In this document: in pieces, positions 33,641-54,645 of the stretch
Layout of the letters: every line of letters begins with the position of its first letter
Position numbering within the stretch: position 1 is the stretch's first letter
Assembly (NCBI RefSeq): GCF_025127995.1
Contig: NZ_JAHLYP010000029.1
Span: 1 to 64,000, forward strand
Reading direction: 5' to 3'
DNA from: Synechococcus sp. CS-1332
GTDB taxonomy: Bacteria; Cyanobacteriota; Cyanobacteriia; PCC-6307; Cyanobiaceae
DNA: 64,000 nt
The notes under the pieces: generated by a model
Seen by the model: only the letters and a program-made list of their open reading frames with translations
Told to the model about the DNA's origin: nothing
The model's database searches: none
Translations under genes and position numbers: made by a program

Positions 33641-33748
33641 GGCCCCTGAGGGCGAACCGCAGGGCGATGCGGGCCCCAGGCCGCCCGCCCTGTTGCCCTG
33701 GAGCTTCAGCCAGGTCCTGGCCTGGGAGTTTCCGCTGCACCTTTGCCG

Positions 33749-34393
33749 ATGGCCGTCACTGAAGCGGCCCTGCCCGTGGTGGAAACCTTCCATTCGCTCC
33801 AGGGCGAGGGACTCCACTGGGGCCGCAGCGCCTTCTTCATCCGCCTGGCCGGCTGCCGTGTGGGCTGCTCCTGGTGCGACACGAAGCAGTCGTGGCCTGA
33901 GGCCGCCCATCCACTCCTCCCCCCGGCGACCCTGGCGCTGGAGGCGCAGCAGGCGGCGGTGGCAGGGGCCGGCTTCGTGGTGATCACCGGAGGGGAACCC
34001 CTGCACCACGATCTAAGCGAGCTCACGGAGGCGCTGCGCCAGCACACGCTGTTGCCGTTGCACCTGGAAACCAGCGGCGTGGACCGCCTGAGCGGCAGTT
34101 TCGACTGGATCACCCTCTCCCCGAAACGTCATCGCCCCCCTGAGGAGGGCCTGCTGCGCCATTGCAACGAACTCAAGATCATCGTGCACGAGCTGGCTGA
34201 CCTGGTCTTCGCGGAGGCCATGGCCGGGGAGGCCCGCCTGCTGCGGGAGGGCACAGGTTCTGAGGCGCCGGTCCTGCTGCTTCAGCCTGGCTGGCAGAGC
34301 ACCGGGGGCCAGGCCCTGGCCCTGGACTACGTGCGCTCCCATCCAGGCTGGCGGCTCAGCATGCAGCTGCACAAGGAACTGGGGGTGCGTTGA
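33749..34393 (+). CDS. queE: 7-carboxy-7-deazaguanine synthase
   Basis: A 214-residue radical SAM enzyme of queuosine/7-deazaguanine synthesis, turning 6-carboxytetrahydropterin into 7-carboxy-7-deazaguanine. VVETFHSLQGEGLHWG and FFIRLAGCRVGCSWCDTKQSW show the cluster motif CxxxCxxC. FVVITGGEPLHHD and HLETSG follow, then ITLSPKRHRPP and ELKIIV. The ATG at 33749 is preferred over TTG 33743. The stop shares one base with the next gene (TGATG). queC is 2.3 kb downstream. Confidence 0.94.
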   Translation: MAVTEAALPVVETFHSLQGEGLHWGRSAFFIRLAGCRVGCSWCDTKQSWPEAAHPLLPPATLALEAQQAAVAGAGFVVITGGEPLHHDLSELTEALRQHTLLPLHLETSGVDRLSGSFDWITLSPKRHRPPEEGLLRHCNELKIIVHELADLVFAEAMAGEARLLREGTGSEAPVLLLQPGWQSTGGQALALDYVRSHPGWRLSMQLHKELGVR

Positions 34394-36024
34394 TGGCACG
34401 CTCCCTTCGCTTTCTGGCCTTCAACATTGTCACGGCCCTGGGGTTCATCGCCCTGGGGATAGGGACGCATGTCGTCATCAGCAATCGTCTGCAGGAGAAG
34501 GCACGCGCCAACCTCCGTTCGAGCACCACGGCCTTGACACTGGACATCAGTCAGTCGGTCAGCAAGTCTGTTCGCTCCATGCATGGGCTCACGGCACGGC
34601 TCAGTGTCGATCCCTCGATCTCCTACGAGACTTTCCGGGAGCTCGCCCACCAGAGCGTCGACCCACTGACGGGATTGATTTTTGTGGAGTGGCAGCCTCT
34701 GGTGACGAAACAGAATCGAGAGGCCTTCGAGCGTTCGGTGCGCAGACAGGGTGGCCTGTTCAGCGATTTCCAGCTGTGGGAACCCGTCAATGGCAAGGAC
34801 GGCTCCATACCCGCTCGGGAGCGCGACTTTCATGTCCCGGTGCTCTATGTCTACGACGTCATGAACAAGGCCAGCACGACGCTGGGGCTGGATCTGGCCT
34901 TCTCCCCTGAACGGATGGAGTCGAAATGGCGTGCCAGAGATGCAGGAGATCCCGTGGCCTCGGGCCTGTTCCGGGTCATCCGCTATCCGGGTGATTCGGT
35001 TCAGCCCATGGGCTTCGCCGTTACCGTTCCCGTGTACCGTGGTGGAATCATTCCTGGAACATTTAGTCAACGAAATGAACAGATCGAAGGCTTCGTGGCA
35101 CTGGTCTACGACCTCAAGATCCTGCTGCAAAACGAACTCAAGGATCTCAGGGAGCAGGGCCTCAATCTGACCATCTCCCAGGAAGGGATGCCCGAATCCA
35201 GACTTGCGGTTCCCGCTGGTCCCGCCACTGGGCTGAGCGCAGAGAAACGCACACTCATCTACGGAACAACCTGGATCATCCGCCTGGATGCCTCCAAGCA
35301 ATTTATCGCTGTGCAAAAGTCTGCCCAGGATGACCTCCTGCCCTGGCTGGTCACCCTGATGGGCATGATCATTTTTGTCTTTCTGTTCGTCCTGCAGCGC
35401 AACGTGAACAAGCTGCAATTGGCCCGCAAGGAACTGATTGCCAGCAACGCCCTGCTGCATCGTTCGCAGGAACAACTCAAGGAACTGGTCGTCCACGATC
35501 CCCTCACCAACCTGTTCAACCGACGTGGTTTCCAGGAGCGAGCGATCCCGGAGCTGGCACGGAGCCGGCGCTATCACCTGCCACTGGCGCTGCTGATGTT
35601 GGACCTGGATAACTTCAAGCAGGTTAATGACCTTTGGGGACACCACATCGGCGATGTCGTGCTGCAACGGCTTGGCCATCAGCTGCAGAACAGCCTGCGG
35701 GCAACGGATGTGGTGGCGCGTCTGGGCGGAGAGGAATTCGCGATCCTGCTCAGCCATACCCGATTGGAGGACGCACTGGCGATCGCTGAGCGGCTCAGGC
35801 AGGAAGTCGCAGACGTTGTCCACCATTCAGAAGGCCCTGACATCGAGGGCCGTGTGGGCATGCCGGACTTCCAGATCACCTTGAGCATCGGTTGCGCCAT
35901 GGCAGAACCCGGCTTGGACCTCGACGGGCTGCTCGCGCTGGCCGACTCCGCGCTCTATGCCTCCAAGGCCGGAGGGCGCAACCGGGTCACGGCAGTCAAC
36001 GCTCCAGCGGCCCCCTCGTCATGA
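34393..36024 (+). CDS. CHASE-domain sensory diguanylate cyclase
   Basis: A 543-residue membrane sensor. The first span is about residues 5-27 and the second about 315-335 (WLVTLMGMIIFVFLFVLQ). Between them is a periplasmic CHASE domain, with DPLTGLIFVEWQPLVTKQNR, FSDFQLWEPVNGKDGS and GFAVTVPVYRGG. The C-terminal GGDEF has HDPLTNLFNRRGFQE, LDLDNFKQVNDLWGHHIGD, RLGGEEFAILLSHTR and an RATD inhibitory site. CHASE domains bind small extracellular ligands, here unknown. The middle is low in GC (about 45% in 35041-35100), unlike its neighbours. Confidence 0.9.
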   Translation: MARSLRFLAFNIVTALGFIALGIGTHVVISNRLQEKARANLRSSTTALTLDISQSVSKSVRSMHGLTARLSVDPSISYETFRELAHQSVDPLTGLIFVEWQPLVTKQNREAFERSVRRQGGLFSDFQLWEPVNGKDGSIPARERDFHVPVLYVYDVMNKASTTLGLDLAFSPERMESKWRARDAGDPVASGLFRVIRYPGDSVQPMGFAVTVPVYRGGIIPGTFSQRNEQIEGFVALVYDLKILLQNELKDLREQGLNLTISQEGMPESRLAVPAGPATGLSAEKRTLIYGTTWIIRLDASKQFIAVQKSAQDDLLPWLVTLMGMIIFVFLFVLQRNVNKLQLARKELIASNALLHRSQEQLKELVVHDPLTNLFNRRGFQERAIPELARSRRYHLPLALLMLDLDNFKQVNDLWGHHIGDVVLQRLGHQLQNSLRATDVVARLGGEEFAILLSHTRLEDALAIAERLRQEVADVVHHSEGPDIEGRVGMPDFQITLSIGCAMAEPGLDLDGLLALADSALYASKAGGRNRVTAVNAPAAPSS

Positions 36025-36084
36025 CTGGAGCGCTTGCCGCGCCCCCGGCCCTGCCCATGCGCCCTCTTGCTGCGTACCCCAGGC

Positions 36085-36633
36085 TCAGAGGGCCTGGGCC
36101 GGCTGCTGCACCTTCTCCGCCTTCCAGAGCCGCCAGCGCAGCTGCAGATCCTTGGGGGTGTACACAACGATCGGCCGGCTGGCGTCGTAGGGCACCACGA
36201 AGGGCTTGCTGCCCATGGGCACGAACACCTTGCGTTTGGCCTGGCCGGGGGGGCAGGCCATGCGGGTCGATACCGTCGGCCCCACATCGCTCACGGTGTA
36301 GACGCTGACACCCAGGCCCTTCAGCTTGCTGGCACGGAAGCGGCCGCGGAAGGCCTGCTGGTTGCAGTCGGCCTCCACCTGGCGGCCGGGGATCAGCTGC
36401 ACCCGCCAGTCGCTCGGGTGGGGGGAGAGGCGCGGATCGGTGCCGGGGGGCAGCACACCGGGCAGCTGGATGACCCAGCGGGTCTGGCCGGCGGCGGCGG
36501 CGGGGTAGGGCTTGAGATCCAGCTGGGGAATGGCCAGGGCCGGAGCCCCCAATCCTGCGAACAGGGACGGCAGGGTGACGATGACGCTGGCGGTGGCCGC
36601 CGTCAGGCTGGCGCGGCGCAGGGCGTGGGCCAT
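36085..36633 (-). CDS. eco: ecotin-family periplasmic serine protease inhibitor
   Basis: A 182-residue exported protein. The ATG at 36633 has a GAGG six bases upstream; ATG 36645 is an alternative. Residues 1-34 form a signal peptide ending GAPALA. The mature part follows ecotin closely: [68 protein letters not shown]. Cys90 and Cys127 correspond to the single ecotin disulfide. The reactive-site residue P1 is Arg124, where E. coli ecotin has Met84. It would block trypsin-like proteases, its own or those of grazers and bacteria. It is divergent from queC. Confidence 0.85.
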
Positions 36634-36716
36634 GGGGATCCTCATCCGATCACGATGGCATCCTCGGGCTTCTGCGGCCGCTTCCACAATGGGGGCACCT
36701 TGCTGCTGCCGGCCCC

Positions 36717-37442
36717 ATCACGCCCCCCCCTGCCACGCCACTCGCCATCGCCCTGCTCTCCGGCGGGCTGGATTCGGCCACCGCCGCCGCCCTGGCGATC
36801 GAGGCGGGCCACCGGGTGATCGGTCTCTCCTTCGATTACGGCCAGCGCCACCGGCGTGAGCTGGCCGCCGCCGCCACGGTGGCCGCCGCCCTGGCACTGG
36901 AGGAGCACCATGTGATCGCCGTGAACCTGGCGGCCTGGGGCGGCTCGGCCCTCACCGATCCGGCCATCCCCGTGCCTGATTCCGGGGTGCGCGAGGGGGT
37001 GATCCCCACCACTTACGTGCCCGGACGCAACACGGTGTTCATCGCCCTTGGGCTGAGCCTGGCCGAAGCCCGCGGCGCCGGCAGCCTGGTGCTCGGGGTC
37101 AACGCGGTGGATTATTCCGGCTATCCCGATTGCCGACCCGACTACCTGGCCGCCTTCCAGAGCCTGGCCGACCTGGCCAGCAAGGCGGGGCGCCAGGGCC
37201 AGGGGGCCCGCCTCTGGGCGCCGCTGGTGGCCTGGGACAAGACCACCATCGTGCGTGAAGCCCTGCGGCTGGGGGTGCCGATCGCGGCCACCTGGAGCTG
37301 CTACAGCGGCGAGGATCTCCCCTGCGGCCGCTGCGACAGCTGCCGCATCCGTGATGCCGCCCTGGTCGCTGCCGGCCGGGCCGACCTGGCCAGCGCCGCC
37401 ATCCGCGCCGGTGCCGCCATCAGCGCCGGAGCCGACCGTTGA
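36717..37442 (+). CDS. queC: 7-cyano-7-deazaguanine synthase (start codon abnormal)
   Basis: An ATP-dependent enzyme converting 7-carboxy-7-deazaguanine to preQ0. Essential motifs are the PP-loop [64 protein letters not shown] and the zinc-binding [21 protein letters not shown]. No ATG, GTG or TTG lies in frame between the upstream stop at 36582 and 36816, and 36816 is past the ATP loop. The best match to family N-termini begins at ATC 36717 (then [16 protein letters not shown]). Either a rare start codon or an indel/substitution in this C-rich stretch (eight C at 36723-36730) explains it. It overlaps pabB by 4 bases. Confidence 0.85.
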
Positions 37443-52920: not shown

Positions 52921-54645
52921 ATGCCGTACCGCATCGACCGCCGCGCCTACGCCGAGACCTACGGCCCCACCACCGGTGACCGACTGCGGCTGGCGGACAC
53001 GGACCTGATCCTGGAGGTGGAGAGCGACTGCACCACCTACGGCGATGAGGTGAAGTTCGGCGGCGGCAAGGTGATCCGGGACGGCATGGGCCAGGCCCAG
53101 ACCTCCCGGGCTGAGGGGGCCGTGGACACGGTGATCACCAATGCCCTGATCCTCGACTGGTGGGGCATCGTCAAGGCCGATATCGGCCTGCGGGACGGCC
53201 GCATCTGTGCCATCGGCAAGGCGGGCAACCCCGACATCACCGATGGGGTCACGATCGTGGTGGGACCTGGCACCGAGGCCATCGCCGGCGAGGGCCACAT
53301 CATCACCGCCGGGGCGATCGACACCCATATCCACTTCATCTGTCCCCAGCAGATCGAAACCGCCCTGGCCAGCGGCGTCACCACCCTGCTGGGCGGCGGC
53401 ACCGGCCCGGCCACCGGCACCAATGCCACCACCTGCACCCCCGGCGCCTTCCACCTGGCCCGCATGCTCCAGGCCGCCGAGGGGCTGCCGATCAACCTGG
53501 GCTTCTACGGCAAGGGCAACGCCAGCACGCCCGCCGCGCTCGAGGAGCAGATCCGCGCCGGCGCCTGCGGTCTGAAGCTGCACGAGGACTGGGGCACCAC
53601 CCCGGCCGCCATCGACTGCTGCCTGACGGTGGCCGACCGCTTCGATGTGCAGGTCTGCATCCATTCCGACACCCTCAACGAGGCGGGCTTCGTGGAGGAC
53701 ACGATCCGGGCCATCGGCGGCCGCACCATCCACACCTTCCACACCGAGGGGGCCGGCGGCGGCCACGCCCCCGACATCATCCGCATCTGCGGCGAGCCCA
53801 ATGTGCTGCCCAGTTCCACCAACCCCACCAAGCCTTACACCGTCAACACCCTCGAGGAGCACCTCGACATGCTGATGGTGTGCCACCACCTCGATCCCCG
53901 CATCCCGGAGGACGTGGCCTTCGCCGAATCCCGCATCCGCCGCGAGACGATCGCCGCCGAGGACATCCTTCACGACCTGGGCGCCTTCAGCATCATCGCC
54001 AGCGATTCCCAGGCGATGGGCCGGGTGGGCGAGGTGATCACCCGCACCTTCCAGACGGCCCACAAGATGAAGGTGCAGCGTGGTTTCCTCCCCGAGGACG
54101 CCGCCGGTCCCCGCGGCGGCCGCAATGACAACACCCGCCTGAAGCGCTACATCGCCAAGTTCACGATCAATCCCGCCATCGCCCATGGCCTCGACAGCCA
54201 GGTGGGATCGGTGGAGGTGGGCAAGCTGGCCGATCTGGTGCTGTGGAAGCCGGGTTTCTTCGGTGTCAAGCCGGAGCTGGTGATCAAGGGGGGCTCGATC
54301 GTCTGGGCCCAGATGGGCGATGCCAACGCCTCGATCCCCACGCCGGGGCCCGTGCATGGCCGGCCGATGTTCGCCGCCTATGGCGGTTCGCTGGCCGGCA
54401 GCTGCCTCAACTTCGTCAGCCAGGCCGCGCTCGACGCCGATCTGCCCAGCAGCCTCGGCCTGAAGCGGGCCTGCGTGCCGGTGGTCCAGACCCGGGGCAT
54501 CGGCAAGGCCCAGATGCGCAACAACACCGCCCTGCCCAAGGTGGAGGTGGATCCCCAGACCTACGAGGTCTTCGCCGACGGGGAGCTGCTCACATGCGAG
54601 CCGGCGGAGGTGCTGCCCATGGCCCAGCGCTACTTCCTGCTGTAG
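52921..54645 (+). CDS. ureC: urease alpha (catalytic) subunit
   Basis: A 574-residue binuclear nickel amidohydrolase. Nickel ligands are seen in [13 protein letters not shown] (HxH), the carbamylated Lys in [10 protein letters not shown], His in [11 protein letters not shown] and [14 protein letters not shown], and Asp in [11 protein letters not shown]. The flap has MVCHHLD with the mobile Cys and catalytic His. It hydrolyses urea to ammonia and carbamate in the cytosol. Its end overlaps the convergent HpsJ-like gene by 16 bases. Confidence 0.98.

Follow-up and report, generated by a model that had tools for sequence, protein, structure and literature searches.

Ecotins are serine protease inhibitors, classified as MEROPS I11 (PMC9904509), whose role outside mammalian systems is described as poorly known (PMC9904509). 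The chelating model assigns to the ecotin dimer a second contact with the protease, made by its 60s and 100s loops (PMC9904509; PMC9136129), and a 2022 paper asked why most ecotin orthologues carry Met at the P1 position (PMC9136129). The same paper reports that the M84R variant of Escherichia coli ecotin binds MASP-1, MASP-2 and MASP-3 7000-, 275- and 17-fold more tightly, and that this exchange makes up to a large extent for a weakened secondary site when the lectin pathway is inhibited (PMC9136129). Natural ecotins with Arg at P1 are listed by a review for Rhizobium and Tatumella, that of Tatumella citrea keeping its inhibition of trypsin while being 1000-fold weaker on neutrophil elastase (PMC9904509). 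P1 need not be the sole determinant: in Campylobacter, ecotins whose P1 is Leu or Met and whose secondary site is not conserved are reported to be active against trypsin, factor Xa and neutrophil elastase (PMC7773321). Within the open-licence PMC literature, judged by titles and the openings of abstracts, no paper treating a cyanobacterial ecotin was found, nor was any activity measurement for one, and the main text of the ecotin review (PMC9904509) contains no word beginning with ‘cyanobacter’.

Here, we describe an ecotin gene in a 64,000-nucleotide stretch of Synechococcus sp. CS-1332 (hereafter the window, i.e. the whole stretch of DNA analysed), for which a first-pass annotation had singled out an Arg at P1.

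Sequence sampling

The comparison is based on 125 aligned rows, 100 cyanobacterial and 25 from Pseudomonadota (E. coli included), retained after the removal of identical rows and of one contained row. Several sequences were dropped before tree building, namely four divergent paralogues, all with Leu at P1 (L046, L083, L084 and L086), fragments with stops (L047, L085 and L087, the first and last being the same gene), a sequence with an internal stop (L178), a weak match (L180) and repeats of genes already included (L154–L156). The scan of named genomes provided 65 loci: the record titles of 63 were cyanobacterial, and the other two came from Brachymonas. One of these Brachymonas defined the phylum, which we take to be Pseudomonadota, for the non-cyanobacterial survey, in which 25 of 398 genomes had an ecotin match.

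A complete ecotin gene on the minus strand

The gene lies at positions 36085–36633 on the minus strand, a detail missing from the first-pass annotation, and runs from an ATG at 36633–36631 to a stop at 36087–36085, thereby encoding a protein of 182 amino acids; the plus-strand translation of the same interval is unrelated. Its assignment to the ecotin family is supported by this frame and its stop, by the predicted fold and by the Pfam profile PF03974, matched over positions 2–122 of 122 with an E-value of 1.6e-37 (128.6 bits for a cut-off of 22.2). On the NCBIfam ecotin equivalog model NF002987, the protein scored 113.2 bits, below the curated cut-off of 162; it is not classed there with E. 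coli ecotin as an equivalog. For the mature protein, an AlphaFold2 model built from a 49-row alignment reached a mean pLDDT of 89.9 and a pTM of 0.83, and a Foldseek search with it returned 29 PDB matches at E ≤ 0.001, every one an ecotin entry, the best being 1id5 (E-value 5.8e-13).

The earlier reading of a full ecotin with both disulfide cysteines holds: by alignment, counterparts of E. coli Cys50 and Cys87 occur in the window protein and in all 100 distinct cyanobacterial rows. Trp130 and the P2 Thr are likewise retained in every one of these rows, and the window protein has what aligns as the C-terminal arm, a dimerization element in ecotins. Judged by eye, a hydrophobic N-terminus forms a putative signal peptide (residues 1–34; 36532–36633, minus strand) that ends in APALA, after which cleavage would expose IPQLDL. 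A possible Shine–Dalgarno sequence, AGGA, stands five bases before the ATG (36639–36642, minus strand). A promoter and terminator scan of positions 35950–36900 found none, and neither of the two RNA families present in the window lies close to the ecotin gene. Elsewhere in the window, the Rfam family RF02514 (5_ureB_sRNA) was detected at 53077–53362 on the minus strand with 142.1 bits.

The codon aligned with E. coli Met84 (36262–36264) reads CGC on the minus strand, so that P1 is indeed Arg. A sequence error at this codon, envisaged at first, is unlikely, as the nearest relative (96% identical; L018, L089) also carries Arg, the residue found at P1 in most of the clade.

P1 residue across ecotins

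The survey of P1 in other cyanobacterial ecotins proposed by the first-pass annotation gave Arg in 74, Leu in 16, Lys in 10 and Met in none of the 100 distinct rows of the family. The idea of Arg as an exceptional or rare state is thus rejected, Arg being the commonest residue at this position. The 25 Pseudomonadota rows displayed Met in 10, Leu in nine, Arg in five and Lys in one. The contrast initially drawn with E. coli is correct in that P1 is Met there, but it was overdrawn, Met being one of several states. The 87 rows retrieved first, which include the window and represent 86 places (one counted twice), comprised 61 with Arg at P1, 18 with Leu, five with Lys and three fragments lacking P1; since four of those with Leu are divergent paralogues, the main ecotins amount to 61 Arg, 14 Leu and five Lys. 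In the window's own genus, Arg was found in 11 and Leu in six. In the sequences compared, Arg at P1 is the usual state in the clade and a known minority state elsewhere. Arg itself is ordinary for the clade; it is rather the recurrent two-way switch of P1 and the changed second site, both described below, that merit attention.

On a tree of the 100 cyanobacterial rows from which the P1 column had been left out, eight changes between a basic residue and Leu are needed on the best tree, at least five of them forced by the starred branches, with 6–8 as the 5–95% range over 200 bootstrap trees; 11 changes are needed when all three states (Arg, Leu and Lys) are distinguished. Some of these changes separate very close sequences: the two closest Arg/Leu pairs are 94–95% identical, with P1 codons CGG versus CTG, and the window differs from its 94% identical relative L019 by CGC versus CTG. 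Cyanobium sp. Cruz-8D1 (Arg) and Cyanobium sp. Aljojuca 7A6 (Leu) likewise form a natural Arg/Leu pair.

The possibility that P1 is an unusually fast column was rejected, as its 11 parsimony steps equal the median of the 149 columns. What is unusual about P1 in this alignment is its small alphabet. Indeed, only eight of the 84 columns with at least nine steps have four or fewer states, P1 among them. Five of these eight are conservative (I/V; P/A/V; V/L with rare I and E; V/L/I; L/V/I with rare M), and the other three are a column of R/Q/K with one E, P1 itself (R/L/K) and P1′ (M/K/R). Elsewhere in the alignment, where the predominant residue is basic, the most frequent replacements are Gln (152), Thr (101), Ser (71) and Glu (71), followed by Leu (69). 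A mixture of Arg and Leu is nevertheless not unique to P1, position 113 of the 100s loop being occupied by Arg in 36 rows, Leu in 26 and Trp in 24, besides others. The P1 pattern would be compatible with an alternation between two classes of inhibitor, and its repeated switching hints at an inhibitor that may follow the changing enzymes of its enemies.

A changed second protease-binding site

At the positions of Trp67, Tyr69, Arg108 and Asn110, which belong to the mechanism of E. coli ecotin and are not needed for membership of the family, the window protein has Leu, Val, Pro and Asp, respectively. The change extends over much of the clade: Trp67 is present in 22 of 100 cyanobacterial versus 25 of 25 Pseudomonadota rows, Tyr69 in 24 versus 24, Arg108 in six versus 17 and Asn110 in 73 versus 22. 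Moreover, the window protein contains a nine-residue insertion, LPPGTDPRL (residues 61–69; 36427–36453, minus strand), the columns of which are filled in at least 90 of the 100 cyanobacterial rows but empty in all 25 Pseudomonadota rows. In raw counts, Trp67 occurs in eight of 16 rows with Leu at P1 versus 14 of 84 with a basic P1; no association between Leu and an intact secondary site could be demonstrated from these, only three independent pairs being available on starred branches.

Because these four residues are replaced, the broad two-site clamp is probably not what the window protein depends on. Disruption of the 60s loop need not abolish binding, as Foldseek also matched PDB 1ezs, by its entry title E. 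coli ecotin M84R/W67A/G68A/Y69A/D70A bound to rat trypsin; trypsin is thus still bound by an Arg-P1 ecotin without an intact 60s loop. Alternatively, the window protein could be a broad-spectrum ecotin as in E. coli, in which other contacts dominate and trypsin, chymotrypsin and elastase are all inhibited. Ecotins with varied P1 residues and poorly conserved secondary sites that still inhibit several classes (PMC7773321) speak for such breadth; however, the residues that confer it in E. coli are altered here, the Arg-P1 inhibitor of T. citrea is 1000-fold weaker on neutrophil elastase (PMC9904509), and the confinement of P1 to Arg, Lys or Leu in 100 rows suggests that this position matters. 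We therefore regard a broad spectrum as unlikely.

Distribution, locus and origin

PF03974 was matched in 83 of the 251 genomes of the window's family (65 of the 168 with at least 90% completeness and at most 5% contamination), leaving no ecotin match in 168 of the 251 and in 103 of the better ones. In a sample of the phylum, 23 of 386 genomes had a match, all 23 in this same family, and on the tree a single branch, with an SH-aLRT value of 99, sets all 100 cyanobacterial rows apart.

The genomic neighbourhood is largely conserved. Among the 63 named cyanobacterial loci, queC was found in the available stretch for 58, on the opposite strand every time, within 600 bases in 54 and at 1,252–1,971 bases in four (L095, L097, L098 and L100); of the remaining five, two had fewer than 200 bases upstream, and L116, L121 and L133 lacked queC despite 3,000 bases upstream. 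In L001–L047, an oppositely oriented queC lay no more than 600 bases away at 43 of 47 loci, the exceptions being L002, L005 and L010, all with Leu at P1, and a divergent paralogue without a match. For L048–L087, whose flanks are short, queC was found in eight of 40, with too little flank in 29 and no match beside three divergent paralogues. The ecotin was matched in 24 of 26 non-cyanobacterial loci, none of them with queC, and the other two gave no tblastn match. From these sequences, the simplest reading would be a single acquisition beside queC in the family, followed by mostly vertical descent and many losses.

As a side observation, five of the six ecotins without queC nearby (L002, L005, L010, L116, L121 and L133) have Leu at P1, L116 having Arg; L116 and L121 are the two ecotins, Arg and Leu respectively, of a single strain, Synechococcus sp. 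GFB01. Some labels may also be wrong: the ecotin of L098, titled Microcystis elabens, clusters with those of the window's genus, and L139 and L146, from a bin titled Prochlorococcus marinus, are two marine-Synechococcus-like ecotins.

In the window, queC is the divergent neighbour of the ecotin gene (36816–37442, plus strand; Pfam QueC, 6.6e-57). As the match begins at model position 29 when the gene is read from its first ATG, GTG or TTG, the true start is probably further upstream (about 36720–36816, plus strand), perhaps with an unusual start codon. On the other side of the queE–ecotin–queC arrangement seen in relatives by tblastn of the neighbours lies a Radical SAM gene (33743–34393, plus strand; Pfam Radical_SAM, 9.5e-9), presumably queE. 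Between it and the ecotin gene stands a CHASE–GGDEF diguanylate cyclase gene (34390–36024, plus strand; Pfam CHASE, 3.6e-30; GGDEF, 1.6e-45), which does not belong to the inhibitor; in many relatives, searches of this interval matched no gene of the kind.

Divergent ecotin-like proteins, with 27.7–42.4 Pfam bits, Leu at P1 and no nine-residue insertion, were observed in four of the 251 family genomes (L046, L083, L084 and L086, from G009, G244, G092 and G222, respectively), one of which, G222, also has a main ecotin. A model built from these four matched 75 of the 251 family genomes and revealed no further close member: the source genomes gave E-values of 2.6e-61 or better and the next best 1.1e-14, and those of the weaker matches that were compared coincide with the places of main ecotins. 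Among 20 candidate viral stretches, none was confirmed as ecotin; a separate search turned up one 1,676-base Salmonella phage record.

A further possibility is that the gene is a weakly selected relic in which P1 drifts. Remnants of ecotin interrupted by in-frame stops were indeed found next to queC in G029 (L047/L087) and G120 (L085), both of one genus that is not the window's, and the many family members without a match and the median rate of the P1 column point the same way. Nevertheless, the reading frame is uninterrupted across the match in all 17 same-genus genomes that have one (the list leaves out 148 genomes without a match), some structural positions do not vary at all, and it is not obvious why drift should limit P1 to three residues, so few of the rapidly changing columns being similarly restricted. 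Decay of this gene is thus hardly credible.

Putative targets

Searches of the strain's own genome with two S1 Pfam families (PF00089 and PF13365) pointed to the same three places, all encoding Deg/HtrA proteases. Their best NCBIfam model was HhoA/HhoB/HtrA, with 380.5, 411.7 and 396.9 bits, under the equivalog cut-off of 450. The inhibitor, probably exported, could then regulate these periplasmic enzymes of the cell itself, one of the roles first suggested for it. To our knowledge, however, Deg proteases are general in cyanobacteria, whereas ecotin was unmatched in two-thirds of the family genomes (168 of 251). Furthermore, ecotins assayed on Campylobacter jejuni HtrA and E. coli DegP inhibited neither (PMC7773321). 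The control of a periplasmic protease is thus not supported and we consider it very improbable. Given that only Deg/HtrA proteases emerged from the two S1 families and that the ecotins tested do not inhibit such enzymes, a target outside the cell is more likely, e.g. in a protist food vacuole, in a predatory bacterium or among the proteases of neighbours.

Our preferred reading, to which we assign a probability of roughly two in three, is that the product of the gene is exported and, relying on its P1 Arg, inhibits trypsin-like proteases of foreign origin. The ecotin, predicted to be periplasmic or released, would insert this Arg into the acidic S1 pocket of its target, which would supply most of the specificity. 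The expectation of the first-pass annotation that Arg favours trypsin-like targets and weakens the inhibition of elastase is supported by analogy with E. coli M84R (PMC9136129) and, for both parts, with the natural T. citrea inhibitor (PMC9904509), which makes a trypsin-like specificity likely. Protection against trypsin-like enzymes of grazers or bacteria, also put forward there, is a conjectural role, and the interpretation offered by that annotation is partly supported overall. The sequences show the gene, its P1 residue and predicted fold, the clade, the locus, the distribution of P1 and the loss of secondary-site residues; export, inhibitory activity, target class and ecological role are inferred.

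In this reading, the gene is mostly inherited vertically and its target class would shift through small changes of the P1 codon, as between the CGG and CTG of the closest pairs. In its boldest form, ecotin would be a switchable anti-digestion protein, in which such changes flip it between a trypsin-type inhibitor (Arg or Lys at P1) and a chymotrypsin/elastase-type one (Leu), tracking whichever digestive protease dominates in the local grazer or predator, and the loss of the second site makes P1 the main switch. This proposal is tentative and we consider it unlikely as it stands. To the question of why most orthologues carry Met, the picocyanobacterial clade nevertheless offers a natural counter-example, devoid of Met at P1 and with a changed second site, and its near-identical natural pairs, which differ in expected inhibitor class, would allow a clean test of the role of P1 and of selection by grazers or predators.

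Comparison with known systems

The closest described system, E. coli ecotin (eco; PF03974), shares with the window protein its predicted fold, the disulfide cysteines, the P2 Thr, the STxMACP loop, Trp130 and an equal length of the C-terminal arm. The two proteins are 34% identical and differ by the P1 residue, by the nine-residue insertion and by the replacement of Trp67, Tyr69, Arg108 and Asn110. The Arg-P1 ecotins of T. citrea and Rhizobium (PMC9904509) also have a basic P1; they belong to Pseudomonadota and are likened here by their description rather than by sequence. Campylobacter ecotins resemble the window protein in their mostly non-Met P1 and unconserved secondary site, but differ in that P1 is Leu (Met in C. 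showae); they were assayed on trypsin, factor Xa and neutrophil elastase (PMC7773321). The mutant of PDB 1ezs, which according to its entry title combines an Arg P1 with a disabled 60s loop, comes close to the natural state of the window protein, although it is a laboratory construct without the nine-residue insertion and the changes of the 100s loop.

Finally, a two-way choice at one position is also described for cyanopeptolins, in which Arg beside Ahp leads mainly to trypsin inhibition and Tyr to chymotrypsin inhibition (PMC6070996). These are small peptides of other cyanobacteria, unrelated to ecotin, and are cited as a parallel and not as evidence; if the switchable ecotin envisaged above were real, it would be the protein counterpart of the cyanopeptolin choice between Arg and Tyr.
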